Shown piece after piece: positions 1 through 10,938 of a stretch of DNA of 10,938 bases. The stretch lies in NCBI GenBank assembly GCA_003545655.1, contig DODJ01000036.1, forward strand, positions 1 to 10,938. Reading direction: 5' to 3'. Source of the DNA: Candidatus Saccharimonadota bacterium (GTDB lineage: Bacteria > Patescibacteriota > Saccharimonadia > Saccharimonadales > Saccharimonadaceae). The notes under the pieces were generated by a model. It saw nothing but the letters and a program-made list of their open reading frames with translations, made no database searches and had not been told where the DNA came from. Each line of letters begins with the position of its first letter. The first letter of the stretch is position 1. The position numbers and the translations under genes are program-made.

Positions 1-236
1 GTACGAGAGGACCGGGGTGAACGTACCTCTGGTGTATCGATTGTGGCCACCTGCTGCATTGTCGAGTAGCTATGTACGGTTTTAGATAAGCGCTGAAAGC
101 ATATTAAGCGCGAAACTGACCTCAAGATTAGATTTCCCTACGAGGACACAGAAAGAATATCTGTTTGATAGGTGCAAGGTAGAAGTGCAGTAATGCATGC
201 AGCTGAAGCATACTAATAGTCCCATCGCCTTTTTAT
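1..236 (+). rRNA. rrl: 23S ribosomal RNA, 3' end (partial)
   Basis: This is the last part (domain VI) of large-subunit rRNA. The window opens inside the sarcin-ricin loop, whose universal sequence GTACGAGAGGACC is at 1-13; this loop binds elongation factors. The conserved 3' segment TACTAAT is at 211-217, and the mature end is expected about 20 bases later. The exact 3' end is estimated, because the 5' strand of the closing helix lies outside the window. The gene is followed on the same strand by 5S rRNA, the usual bacterial order. No break or intron is visible in the part seen. Confidence 0.95.
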
Positions 237-243
237 GTCCTTA

Positions 244-461: not shown

Positions 462-570
462 TTCGGTGCCCATGGCGCTGAGGAAATACCTGTTCCCATT
501 CCGAACACAGAAGTCAAGCTCAGTAGCGGCGATTATACTGCCACAAGTGGGAAACTAGCACGGTGCCGAA
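462..570 (+). rRNA. rrf: 5S ribosomal RNA
   Basis: This encodes the small RNA of the large ribosomal subunit. The core CCATTCCGAACACAGAAGTC (496-515) is the characteristic 5S loop region, and GTGGGAAACTAG (547-558) matches the usual 3' arm. The ends were set by the closing helix: TTCGGTGCC at 462-470 pairs over nine positions, two of them G-U, with GGTGCCGAA at 562-570. The resulting length of about 109 bases is slightly short but within the bacterial range. It is co-transcribed with the upstream 23S gene and followed at once by a terminator. Confidence 0.95.
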
Positions 571-574
571 TTAT

Positions 575-732: not shown

Positions 733-1398
733 GTGGTCGAATATCTGCTTGCGATTGTATTAGTTATAGGTGCGGTACTTATTACCTCGGCTGGATATTT
801 TGCGGTTCGCAAACTCATTATTGATCATACCGAACTCCTTCAAAATCAAGCTCAAGTTCTTGCCGAGGCGAAGCAGGAGGTTCGCGCTGAATTACACCAG
901 AAAGCAAGCGAACACTTCGAGAAAACAGTCGAGCAGAATGTAGAATATATCAAGAAAGACCTTCGCCAGACAAGTGAGGCGCTTAACGGGTATGTACGGG
1001 CTCAGTTCGACTCGGCGCTCCATCACGAAATACGCACTTTTAAGGATTCATCAGAAGATATCGGCAAGGTGTCTCGTGGTGCACTTTCGAAATTGCACGA
1101 TGATATTGCCGCTGAACAATCGGCGGTTATCAACTCGTTCAAAGAGGAACAAAAAGCCATCTTGGATGATTTGAAAAAGCAACATGCGGTGCTCGCCGAG
1201 TCTATCGAACACCTCGTAGCTAAAGAGGCCGATCGTCGTATTGAGCAATTTCAAGCCGAGATGGCGCGTATCGTCACCGCCTATGTACATGAAGCTCTTG
1301 CAGACACTCTTGATGTAGAGGCTCAGATGCCATATATACTTGACTCACTTGAAGAGAATAAGCCGGCAATTATAGAGGATATTCGTCGTGTCGCATAG
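733..1398 (+). CDS. atpF: F-type ATPase subunit b-like peripheral stalk protein
   Basis: This is the likely peripheral-stalk (stator) subunit, which holds the alpha3-beta3 head against rotation. What is visible: one hydrophobic N-terminal membrane helix (about residues 3-24), a basic Arg-Lys just after it (26-27), then a long, charged, almost proline-free helix to about residue 200, as expected for a b-subunit coiled coil. The 221-residue length is well above the roughly 156-170 of classical b subunits, so the stalk may be longer. Sequence similarity to known b is weak; the call rests on shape and on its place before delta and alpha. The start is GTG at 733 with AGGA eight bases upstream. The a and c genes that usually precede it are missing. 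Its 3' end overlaps the delta gene by 11 bases. Confidence 0.8.
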   Translation: MVEYLLAIVLVIGAVLITSAGYFAVRKLIIDHTELLQNQAQVLAEAKQEVRAELHQKASEHFEKTVEQNVEYIKKDLRQTSEALNGYVRAQFDSALHHEIRTFKDSSEDIGKVSRGALSKLHDDIAAEQSAVINSFKEEQKAILDDLKKQHAVLAESIEHLVAKEADRRIEQFQAEMARIVTAYVHEALADTLDVEAQMPYILDSLEENKPAIIEDIRRVA

Positions 1399-1870
1399 TG
1401 ATACTGTAGCACTTCCTGAATCGGTAGTAACAAAGGCAGATCTGTCTCGTCTTATCCGTGAGGTTGAAGAATACAGCGAGGTGGCGTATCAGGCGGAAGT
1501 GCGTGGTAGTACAGCTCCAAGTGTCCACTATGCAAGCCCAGCCCTTCAATTTCTTGCTCGCCAACAGGAGGGTATACTTAACTCAAGGCAAGCGCGACAT
1601 ACCCTACTCGACCAACTCCATACACTTCAAGGGGTGGTTATACCAGTTCATGTAGGGTTTGCATCGCAACCGTCTATAAAAGCACTACAGCAACTTGTTG
1701 TTTGGTTTCGAAAGAATGTAGATCCTAGTATCGTTGTTCAAGTAGGGGTTGACCCTTCTATTATTGGTGGGTGTGTTGTGCGCACTACAAATAGGGTATT
1801 TACCTTTACCCTTGCCGAAGCTCTTCGTTCGTCGCAGACGGCACTTGCAAAAGAGGTGGCTGCACTATGA
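1388..1870 (+). CDS. atpH: F-type ATPase subunit delta-like protein
   Basis: This is the likely subunit that links the top of the F1 head to the peripheral stalk. The clearest family feature is near the C-terminus: Asp-Pro-Ser-Ile-Ile-Gly-Gly followed by a Val-Val-Arg strand (about residues 122-132), matching the D-x-S-[LIV]-[LIVMA]-G-G-x-x-[LIV]-R pattern of delta/OSCP proteins. The N-terminal helical domain is poorly conserved, and the protein (160 aa) is slightly shorter than the usual 175-180. The GTG start at 1388 lies inside the end of the b gene, with GAGGAT at 1375-1380 as ribosome binding site. The TGA stop overlaps the alpha start in an ATGA, indicating translational coupling. Confidence 0.8.
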   Translation: MSHSDTVALPESVVTKADLSRLIREVEEYSEVAYQAEVRGSTAPSVHYASPALQFLARQQEGILNSRQARHTLLDQLHTLQGVVIPVHVGFASQPSIKALQQLVVWFRKNVDPSIVVQVGVDPSIIGGCVVRTTNRVFTFTLAEALRSSQTALAKEVAAL

Positions 1871-3300
1871 GTATAACCAGTCAATTTCAAGAACTCGTTA
1901 GCGATGGGCGCCCAGTCGGGGAGGTGATCGCTGTTGATAAATTCTTCGTTAAAGTAAAGGGCCTTCATCCTATAAGTGCACAGTCGCTCATTTTATTTGA
2001 GGATGGGACGACAGGGTATGTACGTGCGACAAATAGCGAATACGTTTCCGTGTTTTCCATGGGAACAACTCCGCCTCGGGTGGGCACCGTTGCGGTTCGC
2101 TATAGCGATGAGCTTACCACCGGGGTGGGTGAACCATTGCTTGGACGCGTACTTTCGCCAACAGGACAACCCCTTGACGGCAAGGGTCCTGTAAAAAACA
2201 CAACAGAGTGGCCAGTATTTAAAGATGCGCCAGCGATTCATGAGCGATTAGGACTATCTGACTTACTAGAAACAGGGGTTACGATGGTTGATTCACTGTT
2301 CCCAGTTGTAAAAGGTCAGCGACTCGCGATTATTGGTGATATGAAAGTGGGTAAGTCGACGCTTGTTGCCCAAGTAGGCCTCAATCAAAAAGACACAGAC
2401 ACTGTTGTAATTTATGCACTAATAGCTAAGCGTCAGGCGGATATCGACGAACTCGTATCGACACTTGATAAAAACGGTGCCCTAAAAACCTCAATTGTAA
2501 TTGCTACAACAATATTTGACTCTCTCGTAACGAGTTACCTCGCCCCGTATATTGCCTGTGCGATAGGCGAATATTTTTGGCAAGAGGCTGGTCGCGATGC
2601 AGTTGTAGTATACGATGACCTTACTTCGCACGCACAAATTTATCGGGAAATATCCTTAGTGGCGGGTACAAATCCCGGCCGTGATTCATACCCTGGTGAT
2701 ATCTTTTATATTCACTCAAGCCTCCTCGAACGTGCCGGCCGCCTCCATGTAAACAAGAAGACCCTTACGGCGTTACCAGTAGTACTTGCTGCAGGGGGTG
2801 ATATTACCGCCTACATGCCAACAAACATCATTTCTATCACCGATGGGCAGTGGATTCTTGACAGTGAAGTCTTTAAGGATGGCTTACGACCTGCTGTAAG
2901 CTCTTCCCTGAGCGTTACGCGTGTAGGTGGGCGCGGGCTTGATAATAGGCAGAAAGACGTCACAGGACGCGTCTTACGGGCTCTTACGGCATATCGGCAG
3001 GCCCTAGAGTATTCCCACTTCGGTGCTGAGCTTTCTGAGGCAACACGTAATGATCTTCGAATCGGTACGCAACTAAAGGCGGCGCTTAACCAGCTCCCAG
3101 GTGAAACGATGCCGTTGTACGCACAACAACTGCTGCTCGAACTCATTCTTGACTCTCCATCAACAGAGACATTACCTCCCATGGATGTTCTAAAACAACA
3201 GTCAATTCATCTTGCAAGCAAACTCACCGATAAGCGGTTAAAGTACGAAGATATATTGAAGACTTTTAAACAACACCATACTAATAAGGGGGCGAAATAA
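1867..3300 (+). CDS. atpA: F-type ATPase subunit alpha
   Basis: This is the non-catalytic nucleotide-binding subunit of the F1 hexamer, which supplies the arginine finger to the catalytic site. Domains in order: N-terminal beta barrel (about 15-85), nucleotide-binding domain with the P-loop GDMKVGKS (157-164), Walker B YDDLTSHA (249-256), the SYPGD-x-FY-x-HS stretch (274-284), and the helical C-terminal domain from about 365. The finger Arg352 is present in SVTRVG (349-354). Changes from typical alpha: Lys160 where most have Gln in GDRQTGKT, Lys188 in place of the usual Gln of the IGQK segment, and a changed loop before PGRDSYPGD. At 477 aa it is shorter than the usual 500-510; the N-terminus that binds delta is about ten residues short. 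It overlaps the delta gene by four bases. Confidence 0.97.
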   Translation: MSITSQFQELVSDGRPVGEVIAVDKFFVKVKGLHPISAQSLILFEDGTTGYVRATNSEYVSVFSMGTTPPRVGTVAVRYSDELTTGVGEPLLGRVLSPTGQPLDGKGPVKNTTEWPVFKDAPAIHERLGLSDLLETGVTMVDSLFPVVKGQRLAIIGDMKVGKSTLVAQVGLNQKDTDTVVIYALIAKRQADIDELVSTLDKNGALKTSIVIATTIFDSLVTSYLAPYIACAIGEYFWQEAGRDAVVVYDDLTSHAQIYREISLVAGTNPGRDSYPGDIFYIHSSLLERAGRLHVNKKTLTALPVVLAAGGDITAYMPTNIISITDGQWILDSEVFKDGLRPAVSSSLSVTRVGGRGLDNRQKDVTGRVLRALTAYRQALEYSHFGAELSEATRNDLRIGTQLKAALNQLPGETMPLYAQQLLLELILDSPSTETLPPMDVLKQQSIHLASKLTDKRLKYEDILKTFKQHHTNKGAK

Positions 3301-3302
3301 CC

Positions 3303-5487
<2,185 letters not shown>

Positions 5488-5488
<1 letters not shown>

Positions 5489-5766
5489 TGAGTCAGGCAC
5501 AAGATATCACCGAATCGGAGAAATCCATGGCCGTAAAAGTGTTTTCACCTCGCGAAGTGTACTACGACGGGGTAGCCGAGAGCTTTACGGCTGCAAACGA
5601 GACAGGTCGATTTGATATTCTTCCGCTTCACCATAGTTTCATTACCCTTCTTACACCAGGGGTAATTAGCATAGGCATAGAAAAAAACAAGAAAAAAGAG
5701 ATCGAAATTAGCAAGGGTCTGTTACGAGTAAAGAACAATCAAGTGGTTGTGTTTCTTGATGTGTAA
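5488..5766 (+). CDS. atpC: F-type ATPase subunit epsilon, N-terminal domain only
   Basis: This is the likely rotor-foot subunit that sits with gamma on the membrane ring. About 79 residues match the epsilon beta-sandwich: a V-F-S-P-R-E-V-Y-Y-D-G opening, then G-R-F-D-I-L-P-x-H-H-S-F, which corresponds to the usual G-E-x-G-I-x-P-x-H-A-P-L, and TLLTPGVISI. The C-terminal helical hairpin that can inhibit the enzyme is absent (92 aa against about 130-140), as in some other phyla. The GTG at 5488 overlaps the beta stop (TAGTG). An internal ATG at 5527 has its own good ribosome binding site and fits the family start better, giving 79 aa. No clear intrinsic terminator follows. Confidence 0.87.
5517..5529 (+). 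promoter_or_regulatory. Internal ribosome binding site and alternative ATG of epsilon
   Basis: GGAG (5517-5520) lies six bases before ATG 5527. Starting here gives a protein opening MAVKVFSPREV, which lines up with typical epsilon N-termini. The upstream GTG 5488 would add 13 mostly polar residues (SQAQDITESEKS) not normal for the family, although GGGAG at 5475-5479 could serve it. The true start cannot be settled from sequence alone. Confidence 0.5.
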
Positions 5767-5894
5767 TAAACATCATTACTTTATTCGTAAGCAGCCTTCC
5801 ATCTGTTATTATTTACGATAGTTCGATCGTACGATGCAAATATTTGATGATATAAAAACAACGAGTATTCTGCAGGTGTAGAGCAACAAAAAAG

Positions 5895-5903
5895 TTATCC
5901 ACA
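5895..5903 (+). promoter_or_regulatory. Consensus DnaA-box sequence
   Basis: TTATCCACA is an exact match to the strongest DnaA binding box. It is single: no second perfect box was seen in the gap, so an origin of replication is not supported. It lies about 40 bases upstream of the -35 of the next promoter, where it could be a regulatory site, or it could be chance. Confidence 0.4.
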
Positions 5904-5911
5904 GGTTTGTA

Positions 5912-5940
5912 TATTTTGTGTTCATTTATTGTTCAAAATA
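5912..5940. promoter_or_regulatory. Inverted repeat abutting the -35 (possible operator)
   Basis: TATTTTG (5912-5918) and CAAAATA (5934-5940) form a 7-bp inverted repeat with a 15-base spacer, ending one base before the -35 hexamer. Two direct copies of GTTCA (5920-5924 and 5931-5935) lie inside it, 11 bases apart, about one helical turn. This is a plausible protein-binding site; AT-richness makes chance possible. Confidence 0.35.
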
Positions 5941-5941
5941 C

Positions 5942-5970
5942 TTGTGCTTATAGAGGTGACTGAGTATAAT
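5942..5970 (+). promoter_or_regulatory. Putative promoter of the surface-protein unit
   Basis: A perfect -10 TATAAT is at 5965-5970. The -35-like TTGTGC at 5942-5947 is at the ideal 17-base spacing. Transcription would start near 5977, giving a leader of about 45 bases before the GTG at 6022. It would drive both the 259-aa protein and the fibre gene. Confidence 0.65.
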
Positions 5971-6021
5971 TTTACCTAGAAGTGACTTGAAACAAACACG
6001 TCATAGAAAACAGGTAGCATT

Positions 6022-6801
6022 GTGGTAAATGGATATCGACAAATTAGGCTAGGAGTGTACTCCGCTGTAAGCGCGGGAGTACTCCTTTTGCTATCGGTAA
6101 CTACTCCGATTGCTGCCGCCTACACCGGGGCTGAGTACCCCACGACCGCTACTTGGTCGACGGGAAGTGTTGTCTCGGTTAACGATTCGGGAGATGTCGT
6201 GGCCGCATCGCTTGCAGCAACTAACTATCTTGGCGTGGTAACTCAACAGATAGATGCTACGACAGTGGAAGTGGCGGATAGCGGCGCTGTCTCAGTCCTT
6301 GTTACTGATGCGGCTGGCGAGATAGCAAGTGGGACACGCTTAGGGCTTTCCGAAATTGCTGGTATAGCCGGTGCCTGGACAGGTGGGGTAGCTATAGGGG
6401 TAGCTCAAGCAACTCCGACAGATTGGCGGGAAGCAACGCTTAGTAACCAAGCTTCAGCTAAAGTGACGACGGTGCAAGTACAACTGCTCACCGACGGCGC
6501 TGCCAGCGACACCTCAGCAATAAGCGCATTCTTTGCTGCGGTCGACCGAACCGCCGCTGGTATAGCAGGCAAGCCGGTGGATACGTGGCGTGTCGTGACG
6601 GCGCTGCTTATTGGGCTTGGCGGTCTTATTCTTTCATTCGGACTACTATTTGTTTCAAGTAGAGAAAGCTTTTTCTCTATGGGGCGTAACCCAATGGCAA
6701 GCAGGATTATTATGGGTGGGTTATGGAAGATAGTATTTTTAGCTGTGGGTATTATGCTTATTACGCTTGCCGCTGCGTACCTGATTGTGAGGATAGGGTA
6801 G
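6022..6801 (+). CDS. Secreted/membrane protein with a C-terminal c-subunit-like hairpin
   Basis: I do not recognise a named family for the whole protein. It has a signal peptide (basic start, hydrophobic 12-33, Ala-Ala-Ala before a possible cut at 33/34), then an external, Ala/Thr/Val-rich, probably beta domain to about residue 190. Two membrane helices follow (191-212 and 237-256), joined by a short loop with GRNP at 221-224. Arg214, Arg222, Arg228 and Lys236 place that loop in the cytoplasm. Helix, cytoplasmic R-[NQ]-P loop, helix is the plan of F0 subunit c, but no Asp or Glu lies in the second helix; Val242 is about where the ion-binding residue would be. The start is GTG with AGGTAG at 6012-6017. 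It stands upstream of the fibre gene with one base between them, so the two are probably co-translated and work together, for example as anchor and fibre (inference). Confidence 0.85.
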   Translation: MVNGYRQIRLGVYSAVSAGVLLLLSVTTPIAAAYTGAEYPTTATWSTGSVVSVNDSGDVVAASLAATNYLGVVTQQIDATTVEVADSGAVSVLVTDAAGEIASGTRLGLSEIAGIAGAWTGGVAIGVAQATPTDWREATLSNQASAKVTTVQVQLLTDGAASDTSAISAFFAAVDRTAAGIAGKPVDTWRVVTALLIGLGGLILSFGLLFVSSRESFFSMGRNPMASRIIMGGLWKIVFLAVGIMLITLAAAYLIVRIG

Positions 6802-6802
6802 C

Positions 6803-9800
6803 ATGAACCGTAAAGCCCTGCTTCCAATCGCTATCTCCTTAGGAGTTTTTACGGTTATTTTTGCCGTGGTTGCATTGTTCTTGTGGAATGCTAGTCAGAA
6901 CACCGTATCAAATGCGCCATCGTCACAAACGAGTGTGTCGACGGTTGCCGAACTTCCGGAACTTGAGGTCGATGATACGCCACTTGCAACGGGACGTCAG
7001 GTAATTGGTGGAGACCTTCGTGTAAGTGGAAACGTTTCAATTATTGATGGGTTGACGAGTTCGTCTTTACAGCTTACGCCACTTTCTAGTCAAACTACCT
7101 TGCAGGCGGGACAGCTTTATACGAGTAATGACAATAACCTGTATTACTACAATGGGCAAACGAGTGCGAATATTAGTGGCGGCTTGTCGGCGGCGCAAGT
7201 AGATATTGCCCAGCTACAGGCAGACACAGCGCAGCTACTTACGCAGCCCGAGGCTGTAGTGACACTCCAAGGACAATCAGGAAATGTAGTGCTCACGGGC
7301 ACTTCGGGTATTACCATTTCAGGTACAACTATTAGTAACAGTGGAGTGCTTACTGTCCAGGGTCGTGCGGGCAATGTGCAGTTTGTTGGTGCAAACGGTA
7401 TATCGGTTTCGGGAACTACTATCACAAACACGGGAGTGACAAGCCTTGGGGGTGAATCGGGCGCACTTGCTGTCGGAAATGGGCTTTCGGTAAGCGGCGG
7501 TACATTAGTGAACACAGGAATTACTCAGATTATTTCTAACAGCGCTGACCTCATTGTCTCGAATACAGGCGGTGGGGTATATACCATTAGTTATGCGGGC
7601 TCGGGTGCAGGGGGCACGGTCGCGTTAGCGCCACTTGTTGCGCAGGAGGATTCTAGTGATAATGCCTCGATCGCATTTAACAAAACGGGTGCGGGAAACC
7701 TTATACAGCTATCTACCGGCACGAGTGCGAGTAATAAATTTGTCGTTGATCAAACGGGTACCATTATTAATGGAAGTATTAACTTTAGCCAAGTAACGGG
7801 TGTGCCAAGTTTAGTAAATTCCATTGCCGGCTTAACAGGTACTATTGGGCTAGGAGCGGGCTTGTCGGTAAGCGCCGGACAGCTTGTAGCTACAACATCT
7901 GTAAACAATTTAGTGGGTACAGCCAACCAAATAAATGTTACCGGTAGTGGTACACTTACACTTTCGTTGCCACAAAACATTGCGACAACTTCATCGCCAA
8001 CTTTTGCTGGCCTAACACTTACAAATGCACTTTCAATTGCCAATGGTGGTACAGGTGCTGTTACACCGGGTGGCGCTCGTACCAACCTTGGTGCAGCGGC
8101 AAGTGGGGCAAACAGCGATATTACTTCATTATCGGGGCTTACTACAGCACTCTCGGTTGCTCAGGGGGGTACGGGCACAACAAGCTTAACGCAAAATGGG
8201 GTACTTATTGGGAATGGTACATCTGCGGTAACAGCGCTGACATCCTCAGCGCCAAACCAATGTCTTGTTTCTAGCGCTTTGGGTGAGCTAAGCTTTTCAT
8301 CATGTCCGGGTGCTGGTGGAGTGACAAGCCTTAATAGTAAAACAGGCGCAGTTACAATTGCCGGTCTTGATCCAACAAGTATTGATTCTACGGGTGCGTC
8401 AATTATTATTAGGGACGCATCAGCAAGCGTAAAAGGTCTTGCGTCATTTAACGGCACTAACTTCGCAGTCCTGAATGGAAGTGTAAACACTGTACAGGAT
8501 ATTAATATCGGTGCGGCGCCAACTTTTGCGGGCCTTACCCTAACGTCTGCGCTTAGCGTTGCTAATGGTGGTACGGGGCGAACCTCTTTTGCGACAAATG
8601 GGGTGCTTTTGGGGCAAGGAACAGGGGCGCTTACTTCTGTAAGTACAACTACTGCCGGCCTTTGTCTAGTGTCGGGTACCGGAGGTAGTCTTAGCTTCTC
8701 TACCTGTCCAGGTGCCACGGGCGTAACAAGTCTTAACGGGCTTACCGGGGGGCTAACACTCGGCGTTGTAACGGCTTCAAGCCTTTCGCAGGTGGGAAGT
8801 ACGATCACTATTAATGATGCAAGCGAGGTAATTAAGGGGCTTGCGGCATTTAACGAGGAAAATCTCACAGTGACAAATGGGGTAGTAAATACTATTCAGG
8901 ATATTAACACGGGCGCTACGCCAACCTTCGCTGGTCTTACCTTAACCAGTGCGCTAGATGTAGCAAGCGGTGGTACCGGACTTAGCACAATATCTGCTAA
9001 CAGTCTTCTTATAGGAAATGGTACAAATGCGCTATCTACTCTCAGTACAACCGTAGCTGGTCAATGTCTTGCTTCGGGAGTTGGTGGGGTGCTATCGTTT
9101 GTTACGTGTCCAGGGGCTGAGGTGGTAAATACCTTAAACGGCCAATCGGGCGCGGTGTCAGTTACCGCTGTAGACCCAACGAGCATTGATACAGCCAGCG
9201 GCGTAATTACTATTAAAGATGCATCGTACACTACAAAAGGTCTCGCGTCATTTAATGGAAGTAACTTTAGCGTGCTTGACGGTGCAGTAAATACGGTGCA
9301 GAACATCGGTACGACAGCAAGCCCAACCTTTGAAGGGCTTTCGTTGACGACTGCCTTAGGGGTTGCCAATGGGGGTACTGGAGCGACAAACTTCGCAGCA
9401 AACGGAGTGCTTGTTGGGCAAGGCGCATCTGCGGTTACAACGGTGGGGGCTTCTGCGGAAGGCCAGTGTCTTATTTCTGGAAGCGGTGGGTACCTTTCCT
9501 TTGCGACCTGTCCTGGTTCAACAGGGGTAGTAAGCGTGAACGGCCTTGTAGGCGCATTGACGGTACGTGGGGTAAGCGCTGCAAGTGTACTATCTTCGGG
9601 TACTACGGTAACTATTCAAGATGCTTCAGATACCGTTAAAGGTCTGGCCTCATTTAACACTACTAACTTCACCGTTACGAATGGTGCAGTGAATACTGTT
9701 CAGGATATTACTATAGACGCAACACCAACCTTTGCAGGCCTATCGCTTTCAAGCCCGCTTGCGGTAAGTAGTGGGGGTACGGGGCGTTCAAGCTTCACGC

Positions 9801-10938
9801 TGAATGGTGTGGTGGTTGGTAATGGTGCGTCAGGCCTATTGACCGTAGCTGCTACAGACGCGAATCAGTGTCTTGTTTCGGCTGGCGACGGGTCGCTTAG
9901 TTTTGTAACCTGTCCTGGGGCCACCGGGGTAAACAGTCTAAATAGCCTTACTGGTGCAATCACCCTTAATGCCGCTGATCCAAACAGTATTTCGAGTAGC
10001 GGTACTACCATCACGCTACGCGATGCTACGAATGTGCGCAAGGGGCTTGCATCGTTCGATGCTGCTAACTTTACGGTAGCGAGTGGTGCAGTAAACACGG
10101 TGCAAGATATCGGTACGGGTGCCACCCCAACCTTTGCAAGTATTAACTTAACCGCCCCGCTTAACGTAAATAATGGGGGTACGGGTGCTACTACTGCTGT
10201 TGGTGCGCGCGCCAACCTTGGTGCGGCAGCAAGTGGTGTGAATACCGATATTACTTCACTCGGTTCAGTTACTGACCTTGCTTCATCGGCAGATCTTACT
10301 ATTTCGGCAACAAGCGGTACGGTAAGCTTACAGGGAGCGGCTATGGTATTGGCGCGTGATAACGGGGTAAATAGCACGCAACTTGTATTTGCCGATCCAT
10401 CAGCAGATGTAATCTATACCCTGCAAACCGCGGCCGCTGGTACGTACGATGTATGTACGACAGCCGGAAACTGTGTCGGTGTGGGCGGTGGCGTTACTAC
10501 CGAAGGTGGTACGGTAGGGCGGCTTTCTCGCTTTGTGTCAGGTTCGGCGATAGGCGACTCTATCATTACCGATAATGGCTCAACAGTATCTATTGCTGGG
10601 GCGTTGAGCGTAAATACTATTACTCCAACTGCCGCAGCGGTGATTGGTGCGGTAACACAATCGCTTACGCTGCAAGGCTCGACTACTGCCATTACAGCTA
10701 CTGACGACACAACCACAAACACGCTTACGTTTGCGACACCGTCGGGCGCTAATAAAACCATCACTATTCCAAACGCTAGCGGTACAATTGCTATTTCAGC
10801 AACAGGGCCATTGGTGCTTGATTCAAACGGAAACCTCACCTGTCCTACGTGTCTTACCAGTGGCGGAGGTGGTGGTGGTGCGACGGGTGTTTCCACCGTA
10901 AACGGCATTACGGGTGATATTACTATTACCGCATCGGA
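6803..10938 (+). CDS. Giant repeat-rich surface fibre protein (partial, open at window end)
   Basis: One frame is open from ATG 6803 to the window edge: 1378 codons with no stop. Residues 5-27 form an uncleaved membrane anchor after a basic MNRK, so the rest should lie outside the cell. Then come a polar linker (about 30-60), a LYTSNDNNLYYYNG element (105-118), a short possible coiled coil (128-146), three 28-30-residue repeats (152-239), a beta-rich stretch, and five 134-residue repeats (455-1124). After these are a region with Cys1218/Cys1224 and a glycine run (about 1354-1359). Composition is Gly, Thr, Ser, Val and Ala-rich with few charges, as in beta-strand adhesins and phage tail fibres. 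All 14 cysteines come in close pairs. The role is inferred: surface appendage or adhesin, perhaps for host attachment. AGG at 6790-6792 may be the ribosome binding site. Confidence 0.9.
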   Translation, partial: MNRKALLPIAISLGVFTVIFAVVALFLWNASQNTVSNAPSSQTSVSTVAELPELEVDDTPLATGRQVIGGDLRVSGNVSIIDGLTSSSLQLTPLSSQTTLQAGQLYTSNDNNLYYYNGQTSANISGGLSAAQVDIAQLQADTAQLLTQPEAVVTLQGQSGNVVLTGTSGITISGTTISNSGVLTVQGRAGNVQFVGANGISVSGTTITNTGVTSLGGESGALAVGNGLSVSGGTLVNTGITQIISNSADLIVSNTGGGVYTISYAGSGAGGTVALAPLVAQEDSSDNASIAFNKTGAGNLIQLSTGTSASNKFVVDQTGTIINGSINFSQVTGVPSLVNSIAGLTGTIGLGAGLSVSAGQLVATTSVNNLVGTANQINVTGSGTLTLSLPQNIATTSSPTFAGLTLTNALSIANGGTGAVTPGGARTNLGAAASGANSDITSLSGLTTALSVAQGGTGTTSLTQNGVLIGNGTSAVTALTSSAPNQCLVSSALGELSFSSCPGAGGVTSLNSKTGAVTIAGLDPTSIDSTGASIIIRDASASVKGLASFNGTNFAVLNGSVNTVQDINIGAAPTFAGLTLTSALSVANGGTGRTSFATNGVLLGQGTGALTSVSTTTAGLCLVSGTGGSLSFSTCPGATGVTSLNGLTGGLTLGVVTASSLSQVGSTITINDASEVIKGLAAFNEENLTVTNGVVNTIQDINTGATPTFAGLTLTSALDVASGGTGLSTISANSLLIGNGTNALSTLSTTVAGQCLASGVGGVLSFVTCPGAEVVNTLNGQSGAVSVTAVDPTSIDTASGVITIKDASYTTKGLASFNGSNFSVLDGAVNTVQNIGTTASPTFEGLSLTTALGVANGGTGATNFAANGVLVGQGASAVTTVGASAEGQCLISGSGGYLSFATCPGSTGVVSVNGLVGALTVRGVSAASVLSSGTTVTIQDASDTVKGLASFNTTNFTVTNGAVNTVQDITIDATPTFAGLSLSSPLAVSSGGTGRSSFTLNGVVVGNGASGLLTVAATDANQCLVSAGDGSLSFVTCPGATGVNSLNSLTGAITLNAADPNSISSSGTTITLRDATNVRKGLASFDAANFTVASGAVNTVQDIGTGATPTFASINLTAPLNVNNGGTGATTAVGARANLGAAASGVNTDITSLGSVTDLASSADLTISATSGTVSLQGAAMVLARDNGVNSTQLVFADPSADVIYTLQTAAAGTYDVCTTAGNCVGVGGGVTTEGGTVGRLSRFVSGSAIGDSIITDNGSTVSIAGALSVNTITPTAAAVIGAVTQSLTLQGSTTAITATDDTTTNTLTFATPSGANKTITIPNASGTIAISATGPLVLDSNGNLTCPTCLTSGGGGGGATGVSTVNGITGDITITAS
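7256..7519 (+). repeat. Three short tandem repeats in the fibre (30, 30, 28 residues)
   Basis: The units are 7256-7345, 7346-7435 and 7436-7519 (residues 152-181, 182-211, 212-239). Each has a core like V-x-x-L/V-x-G-x-x-G-x-V, then G-I/L-x-[IV]-S-G-[TG]-T, and ends N-[ST]-G. The same core recurs once per long repeat downstream, so these look like a minimal building block of the fibre. Confidence 0.75.
8045..8131 (+). repeat. Tail-fibre-like 29-residue motif, copy 1
   Basis: The encoded segment begins GGTGAVTPGGARTNLGAAAS and ends DITSL (residues 415-443). The GGTG...GAR-x-NLG pattern is common in phage tail-fibre proteins. A near-identical copy lies at 10175-10261, so the two bracket the five long repeats. 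Confidence 0.75.
8165..10174 (+). repeat. Five tandem 402-bp (134-residue) repeats in the fibre
   Basis: Taking the GGTG codons as anchor, units begin at 8165, 8567, 8969, 9371 and 9773, and the next GGTG is at 10175: every step is exactly 402 bases. Each unit runs GGTG, NGV/SLL-[ILV]-G-x-G, a Cys-x13-Cys pair with LSF before the second Cys, CPG, an L-N/V-N-G core, a DAS/DAT strand, KGLA[SA]F, [NS]-T-[VI]-Q-[DN]-I, and P-T-F-x-[GS]-[LI]. Protein sequence is well kept but DNA differs at many silent sites, so the copies are old and under selection. The constant length suggests a fixed structural module, probably a stacked beta domain. Confidence 0.92.
10175..10261 (+). repeat. Tail-fibre-like 29-residue motif, copy 2
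   Basis: The segment begins GGTGATTAVGARANLGAAAS and ends DITSL (residues 1125-1153). It closes the long-repeat array and closely matches the copy at 8045-8131. After it the 134-residue period stops and the sequence becomes different. Confidence 0.75.

Follow-up and report, generated by a model that had tools for sequence, protein, structure and literature searches.

The window analysed here, 10,938 nucleotides in length, is the whole of a contig (C55; GenBank DODJ01000036.1) in the draft genome of a Candidatus Saccharimonadota bacterium (657 kb, 80.66% complete). It carries a set of F1-type ATPase genes, the gene of a 259-aa membrane protein (hereafter, the hairpin protein), and a giant fibre gene, and we propose below that the first two encode a motor that does not pump ions. 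The six F1 and stalk genes, all on the plus strand, encode a b-like peripheral stalk protein (733..1398), a delta (OSCP)-like stalk subunit (1388..1870; PF00213, 25.3 bits with a cut-off of 22.3), alpha (1867..3300; PF00006, E 6.9e-65), gamma (3303..4184; PF00231, E 3.2e-28), beta (4181..5488; PF00006, E 7.8e-64), and an epsilon of 92 aa that consists of the N-terminal sandwich domain only (5488..5766; PF02823, E 7.4e-16). After a gap of 255 bp (5767..6021, +), the hairpin protein gene follows (6022..6801, +), and the fibre gene (6803..10938, +) starts one base past its stop codon and runs off the contig. The positions, strand and order of these genes, the one-base spacing before the fibre gene, and a six-gene F1/stalk set without a or c had been described in a first-pass annotation of this DNA, with which the open reading frame (ORF) and Pfam calls agree; the Pfam scan of the window proteins found neither subunit a (PF00119) nor subunit c. 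The b-like protein matched no Pfam b model above the cut-off and was called from its place before delta and from its plan, which by eye is a hydrophobic N-terminal stretch followed by a long coiled-coil-like part; it belongs to a cluster of similar proteins that occurs in 35 loci.

The F1 head of the window belongs to a divergent, second type, in which the catalytic machinery is retained. Walker A, the catalytic Glu and Walker B are present in the window beta and in all 64 non-canonical betas compared (63 of the second type and that of locus L115), and the arginine finger is present in the window alpha and in all 65 non-canonical alphas, including that of L115, which is the sole row without the Walker lysine. 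Because the catalytic residues are intact, the head should hydrolyse ATP. The epsilon subunit is short throughout: the epsilon-model matches span 82–132 aa (n = 63), and the ORFs at the epsilon position of canonical operons, assigned by position only, are mostly 136–147 aa.

To place this F1, the genome of the window and 60 relatives (61 genomes) were searched for ATP synthase subunits. The c subunit (PF00137) was found in 49 of the 61 genomes, the a subunit in 50, and alpha/beta (PF00006) in 52, one of them below the cut-off only; the PF00006 matches listed show only part of the second-type betas, and counts resting on them are lower bounds. Each of the 50 genomes with an a gene has one copy, which lies beside a canonical c wherever c was detected. 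By score, the PF00006 matches separate into two groups: canonical sets, which lie beside a and c, and a divergent set resembling that of the window. Relatives carry a canonical a-c-b-delta-alpha-gamma-beta-epsilon operon together with the second F1, some of them, such as G012 and G013, within one contig. In a tree of 84 betas (20 canonical, 63 second-type and L115), built with a quick method, unrooted and with several long branches, all second-type betas lie on one side of a branch with a Shimodaira–Hasegawa-like approximate likelihood ratio test (SH-aLRT) value of 98 and the canonical betas on one side of a branch with a value of 100; the beta of L115 falls into the canonical group. Furthermore, the window alpha and beta scored below every NCBIfam cut-off among the best 25 families for each (25 of 35 for alpha), the alternate F1F0 families included, and the beta reached 448.1 with the ordinary ATP synthase model, for which the cut-off is 462.85. 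Since relatives hold two F1 sets and the betas split in the tree, the window F1 is, on these comparisons, a second, divergent F1 and not the ATP synthase of the cell, which the relatives carry separately.

Only one F1 was found in the genome of the window itself. Outside the window, its contig C22 carries an a gene (PF00119; 141-776, minus strand), preceded by a 97-aa ORF that is AtpI-like by eye, and this contig ends inside ATG GAT GCA ATT GCA, which fits the starts of c genes in the same genus (MDALAF in L012 and L019). Separate atpB and atpE genes had been proposed as something to look for in this genome, and the a gene and the likely start of c are what the search returned; we take the a gene to be the remnant of a separate canonical operon. 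The first-pass annotation had held that its reading would suffer if a and c lay elsewhere and this F1 were the sole F1; in the relatives, a and c have an F1 of their own. As a separate observation, L055 (G009:C19) contains an extra, ordinary-looking alpha/beta-family gene with the best PF00006 score among the matches listed, possibly from a contaminant contig (G009 has 1.3 Mb and a contamination estimate of 3%).

The hairpin protein is linked to the second F1. Relatives of the 259-aa protein were found in 36 of the 61 genomes, and all 36 also hold a second F1 (35 by PF00006 and G011 by a partial alpha in L151). In the 25 genomes without the hairpin protein, no second F1 was found among the matches listed, extras in G001 and G021 being below the cut-off. 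The naive probability of this split (36/36 versus 0/25) is 1e-17 if shared ancestry is ignored. The two lie within about 5 kb of each other in 33 of the 36 genomes, the exceptions being G037, G043 and G054. We also compared gene order in 82 stretches, which were picked for carrying the hairpin gene or F1 (plus L001 and L005 from the window's own genome), so that the proportions are not those of a random sample. In 54 of them, the hairpin gene precedes the F1 genes and shares their strand, and its distance to b is at most 44 bp in 36 of the 40 stretches in which b is the next labelled gene. In this usual order, hairpin-b-delta-alpha-gamma-beta-epsilon, the hairpin gene occupies the slot of the c gene in the canonical operon. 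It lies downstream of F1 in five stretches (the window, G012, G013, G009 and G125), with gaps of about 70–175 bp in the four loci other than the window; of the remainder, four have it on the opposite strand, 13 have the hairpin gene without F1, and six have no hairpin gene.

Similar results were obtained beyond these relatives. When named genomes were scanned for matches to ten hairpins from Saccharimonadia, 91 places were confirmed, of which the best 80 were kept; alpha or gamma lies on the same locus in 76 of these 80, and two of the other four show b and delta. Saccharibacteria, or Saccharimonadia, -ales or -monas, are named in 58 of the 80 titles. One locus from the genus of the window (L133, G008) is identical over 18,132 bases to CP075337.1 (L307) from TM7i, so the module is present in TM7i, which is termed a strain or isolate in the passages cited (PMC12281837, PMC12206443). 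The TM7i locus belongs to the 80 places kept, and the hairpin protein of L133 is 287 aa long. In a phylum-wide search of 379 genomes, the hairpin profile matched in 149, many of the matches being to the outside domain only, inside long proteins. Of 39 stretches with full-length matches taken from this search, 31 contain the hairpin and F1 genes together, many of them in families outside the class of the window; WWE3, Daviesbacteria and Howlettbacteria are among the names on these proteins, several of which are labelled 'subunit c' by database pipelines. These results support the conclusion that the hairpin protein is tied to the second F1 across the phylum, and the earlier concern that their linkage might be coincidental is refuted. 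Apart from this, Saccharimonadia-type modules occur in records titled Chlamydiae and Chloroflexi (L258, L295), where label and placement conflict, and a protein matching in length a fusion on G414:C81 is named Verrucomicrobiae; both conflicts may reflect mislabelled bins.

What kind of protein sits in the c slot? The AlphaFold2 model of the 259-aa protein has a mean predicted local distance difference test (pLDDT) score of 84.7 and consists of an N-terminal helix (3-25), which is likely a signal peptide, a beta domain (about 34-160), a helix (166-182), and a hairpin (188-258) of two helices, 188-222 and 224-258, with the loop SMGRNPMA at the turn. A helix–GRNP loop–helix hairpin of the c-subunit plan had been noticed in the first-pass annotation, and both the model and a fold comparison (VIA) bear this out. 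The listed rows that start at model residues 183-191 are ATP synthase chains of 68–86 residues, which we took as c subunits by title and length. The polar R-[NQ]-P loop is present in 78 of 79 hairpins, the remaining one (L194) having GSNP. A search of the hairpin profile against the sequences of solved structures returned only one unrelated weak match (E 0.35), and c was found there by fold comparison alone.

The homology with c is connected through intermediate families. Other Patescibacteria have proteins of about 500–2600 aa that end in a c-like hairpin, and these fusions match the ATP synthase c models of NCBIfam; none matched a mycoplasma X0 model, which says little, as NCBIfam may have no model for the two-transmembrane (TM) protein. 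With PF00137, the window protein gave no match, whereas five of seven scanned fusions pass the 24-bit threshold (L330 scored 21.8 and L336 gave no match). We considered whether the similarity could be due to the GRNP motif alone and checked this with motif-keeping shuffles, masking and decoys (L194 was left out of the decoy set); it is the intermediate families, rather than the Saccharimonadia profile alone, that carry the argument. The AlphaFold model of fusion L334 has a hairpin pLDDT of about 50–60, too weak for a fold search. Taken with the fold and the genomic context, these families support the hairpin protein as a c-subunit homologue with an outside domain.

The known ion-binding site, on the other hand, is missing. 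In canonical c subunits, counting from the Arg of the loop, the carboxylate is found at position +19 or +20 in 28 of 28 sequences, whereas no acid was found at +15 to +29 in 78 hairpins or at +10 to +29 in nine fusion hairpins; 17 of the 78 hairpins have acids within +10 to +29, at +10, +11 or +14 only. Because the carboxylate is missing, the module, to judge from its residues, cannot pump by the known ion-binding site. Nor is the module accompanied by an a gene. While the hairpin is constant, the payloads on it differ and include the beta domain, Ig-like domains and an NHL propeller. In L336 (G097:C112), the gene immediately before delta joins a c-like hairpin to NHL beta-propeller repeats. 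The genome of the window also has a second hairpin locus (L005, on C42), in which the hairpin protein follows directly after the end of a fibre and the stretch contains no F1; near its end, the C42 fibre has a domain like the outside domain of the hairpin protein (E 6.1e-26).

The giant fibre of the window has an N-terminal hydrophobic anchor and a repeat of about 134 residues with PTFAG and NGGTG phrases. Homologues are encoded by ORFs of 1690 aa (cut) in G012, 2604 aa (cut) in G013 and 3172 aa in G009, and a giant fibre follows the hairpin gene in all four loci of the window's lineage (the window, G012, G013 and G009). At 22 other loci, a protein of 320–375 aa adjoins epsilon on the opposite strand, with a TM segment and beta repeats by eye; towards the C terminus, it is similar to a giant neighbour in L199 (E 4.8e-29). 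More generally, 31 of 63 loci have an ORF of at least 600 aa no more than two genes away from the block, whereas none of 20 canonical ATP synthase stretches (about 8–11 kb each) contains such an ORF.

Some large neighbours are of other kinds. At nine loci outside the class of the window (L179, L180, L181, L186, L189, L191, L193, L214 and L215), they start with a DNA-binding head of MerR-like type, which is followed at some distance by a hydrophobic stretch, and are about 760–2870 aa long, some of them cut. Six of the nine were searched with Pfam and all matched MerR, five above the cut-off, the other three being assigned by eye; perhaps these are transcription factors attached to a surface protein. 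In the MerR-headed giant at L179:3769-9165 (minus strand), Pfam further identified a Peptidase_S74 (endosialidase chaperone) domain and, below the cut-off, a capsule-lyase C-terminal domain, a combination reminiscent of phage tail spikes. L115 (G012:C1:450000-469500) and L330 (G067:C8:42000-61500) represent a third kind of F1 module. It comprises a giant of about 2580–2590 aa with a C-terminal c hairpin, a second giant of about 2400 aa, an ABC ATPase and a permease of the MacB/FtsX type (assigned by eye in L115 and from size and order in L330), and then b-delta-alpha-gamma-beta-epsilon.

Could the second F1 and its c-like partner serve to turn something outside the cell? We think it somewhat more probable than its opposite that the module is a rotary motor of the F type which no longer pumps ions and has acquired a payload outside the cell, such that ATP hydrolysis turns a crown, likely for attachment to the host or movement. 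The alpha3beta3 head would hydrolyse ATP and turn gamma-epsilon, while b and delta, presumably with a stator partner in the membrane, would hold the head. Gamma-epsilon would grip the cytoplasmic GRNP loops of a ring built from the C-terminal hairpins of the 259-aa protein, and the beta domain of each ring subunit, exported by the predicted signal peptide, would lie outside the cell, so that the crown would turn relative to the stator. The crown might then act on, or drive, the neighbouring membrane-anchored fibre, and the likely use would be attachment to a host cell or movement on it.

Such an F1 and hairpin ring might instead power the secretion, folding or retraction of surface proteins, without sustained rotation outside the cell. 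FliI-type ATPases assist export, and the frequency of large neighbours fits such an assembly or export machine, though several of them are housekeeping or MerR-headed proteins; the ABC ATPase and permease of L115, with ORFs of matching size and order in L330, point the same way. However, the retained b and delta are easiest understood if torque against the ring matters, and it is because they are kept that we favour torque against a stator. The payload, moreover, belongs to the same polypeptide as the hairpin and varies freely while the hairpin stays constant, which favours a carried load over an exported substrate, and the signal-like N-termini, by eye, suggest ordinary Sec export. An export machine appears unlikely to us. 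It is also conceivable, if improbable, that the outside domains bind the host surface and thereby alter F1 activity or gene expression. A sensor or regulator of this kind would suit the MerR-like heads and later hydrophobic stretches at the nine loci outside the window's class, as well as the NHL beta-propeller payload; however, sensing would be an expensive use of a complete, catalytically intact F1 with its stalk, the MerR proteins are encoded by genes of their own, and no MerR head was seen among the listed Saccharimonadia N-termini, in which no systematic search was made.

Lastly, the window F1 could belong to an ordinary ATP synthase split between contigs, working with the a and c of C22, with the hairpin and fibre genes unrelated to it. 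The presence on C22 of an a gene and of what is likely the start of c would fit, as would the single F1 in this genome, but the assembly is only 80.66% complete, relatives (some, such as G012 and G013, in one contig) hold the canonical operon together with the second F1, the two kinds of beta lie on different sides of well-supported branches, and the linkage to the hairpin gene is phylum-wide. A split ATP synthase is contradicted by the two F1 sets of the relatives, and we consider it very improbable. To return to the proposed rotary motor, the Saccharimonadia hairpin profile is weak on its own (3/28). The first-pass annotation had asked whether F1, hairpin and fibre stay together in related genomes; F1 and hairpin do, whereas only the lineage of the window consistently has a giant fibre gene beside that of the hairpin protein. 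Nor do the large neighbours prove a fibre partner: by eye, three of them resemble Leu-tRNA synthetases and several carry MerR heads, so the count of 31/63 lends weak support.

F1-like motors that do not pump are already known, and what the sequences add is a probable c-like rotor with an outside domain as the membrane partner. The Type 2 and Type 3 F1-like (X0) ATPases of mycoplasmas are established (PMC3369863, PMC11864180, PMC12994834, in the parts cited) and likewise form a second, divergent F1 beside a normal ATP synthase, with no recognised a or c and with ties to surface functions. They have no peripheral-stalk genes in the account cited from PMC11864180, whereas delta (by Pfam) and a b-like protein (by plan and position) are kept here. 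In addition, the F1 runs compared here contain no additional gene as large as that of the 12-TM protein, and homology to c can be recognised in the membrane partner. The window proteins also score below the cut-offs of the mycoplasma NCBIfam models, both for Type 3 (MSC_0618, MSC_0619; beta 400.9 of 570, alpha 241 of 520) and for gliding (alpha 302.3 of 600, beta 342.4 of 850). In the passages cited from PMC11864180, two TM proteins are named only as potential membrane partners of the F1-like ATPase. A recognisable c homologue offers a concrete model for the membrane coupling of non-pumping F1-like ATPases, testable in the isolate TM7i of the window's own genus.

The closest precedent is the set of non-respiratory 'symbiotic' F-type ATPases of Omnitrophota, for which attachment to and motility on hosts were proposed and whose beta clusters with sequences from other Omnitrophota, 'Ca. 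Saccharimonadia' and AB1_lowgc (PMC10066038, as far as cited). The probable link to our module is that paper's statement on Saccharimonadia homologues. The Omnitrophota set adjoins type-4a pilus genes in 57 of 66 contigs, and the description cited mentions no c-like protein with an outside domain (PMC10066038). Here, no type-4a pilus genes were found in the window or among nine proteins of three loci (L138, L139 and L005), in a scan that was not systematic; type IV pilus genes had been suspected there from gene sizes, and the nine proteins gave no pilus family and one TPR-like match only. Elsewhere, in the passages cited, PMC12592800 repeats the prediction of PMC10066038 and finds that most Saccharimonadia bins have F-type ATPases, ATPases are tallied alongside symbiosis genes in PMC10469934, F-type ATPases are regarded as energy enzymes in PMC8672522, PMC11452946 and PMC12281837, and PMC10656485 finds them in 20 of 33 Candidate Phyla Radiation (CPR) members. 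The clade of the second F1 has thus already been glimpsed, while the c-like rotor does not appear in these passages; we recognised no description of a c-like rotor with an outside domain in the literature searched, which largely excludes subscription journals and bioRxiv and is weak evidence of absence.

Compared with a bacterial F1Fo ATP synthase, the module keeps all F1 subunits, a b-like protein, delta, the c hairpin fold with its loop, and usually the c-gene slot, but it has no a in the locus, a putative rotor with an outside domain and no carboxylate, and a shortened epsilon. The outside beta domain resembles the fold of phage decoration, head-fibre-base and appendage proteins (phi29 gp12 C-terminal fragment 3gqh; HFTV1, Sf11 and TW1 capsid proteins), but here it is joined to a c-type membrane hairpin, and the identity is 14–18% in the top phage rows. 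We judge it an even question whether Patescibacteria at large possess an outward rotary motor in which a c ring without ion site is a turntable for interchangeable extracellular domains, be they phage-fibre-base-like, Ig-like, beta-propellers or giants of about 2600 aa. If this is true, X0, which is part of the gliding and antibody-cleaving ATPases of mycoplasmas, may share the same plan, and rotation outside the cell, if shown, would make a strong case for a new class of machine. The module would help to explain the retention of a second F1 by many Patescibacteria. It would also mean that atpA and atpD gene counts overstate ATP synthase capacity, as in G060 (95% complete, 80 contigs), in which the module is present and no a, c or canonical F1 was detected.

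The remaining features of the window are given for context. The contig begins inside a 23S rRNA gene, the 3' end of which occupies 1..237 (+; Rfam RF02541, 178.1 bits), followed by a 5S rRNA (462..571, +; RF00001, 83.3 bits) and, in a terminator scan, by a terminator-like hairpin (575-605). The Tandem Repeats Finder (TRF) reported no tandem repeats. A simple promoter scan gave 15 sites in the window versus 12.7 expected and listed no sigma-70-like site in the 255-bp gap, so that separate promoters for the F1 genes and the hairpin gene are neither shown nor excluded. The same gap, before the gene of the putative rotor, contains a DnaA-box-like sequence, TTATCCACA, at 5895-5903, of which 0.09 (mean) would be expected by chance in the window.

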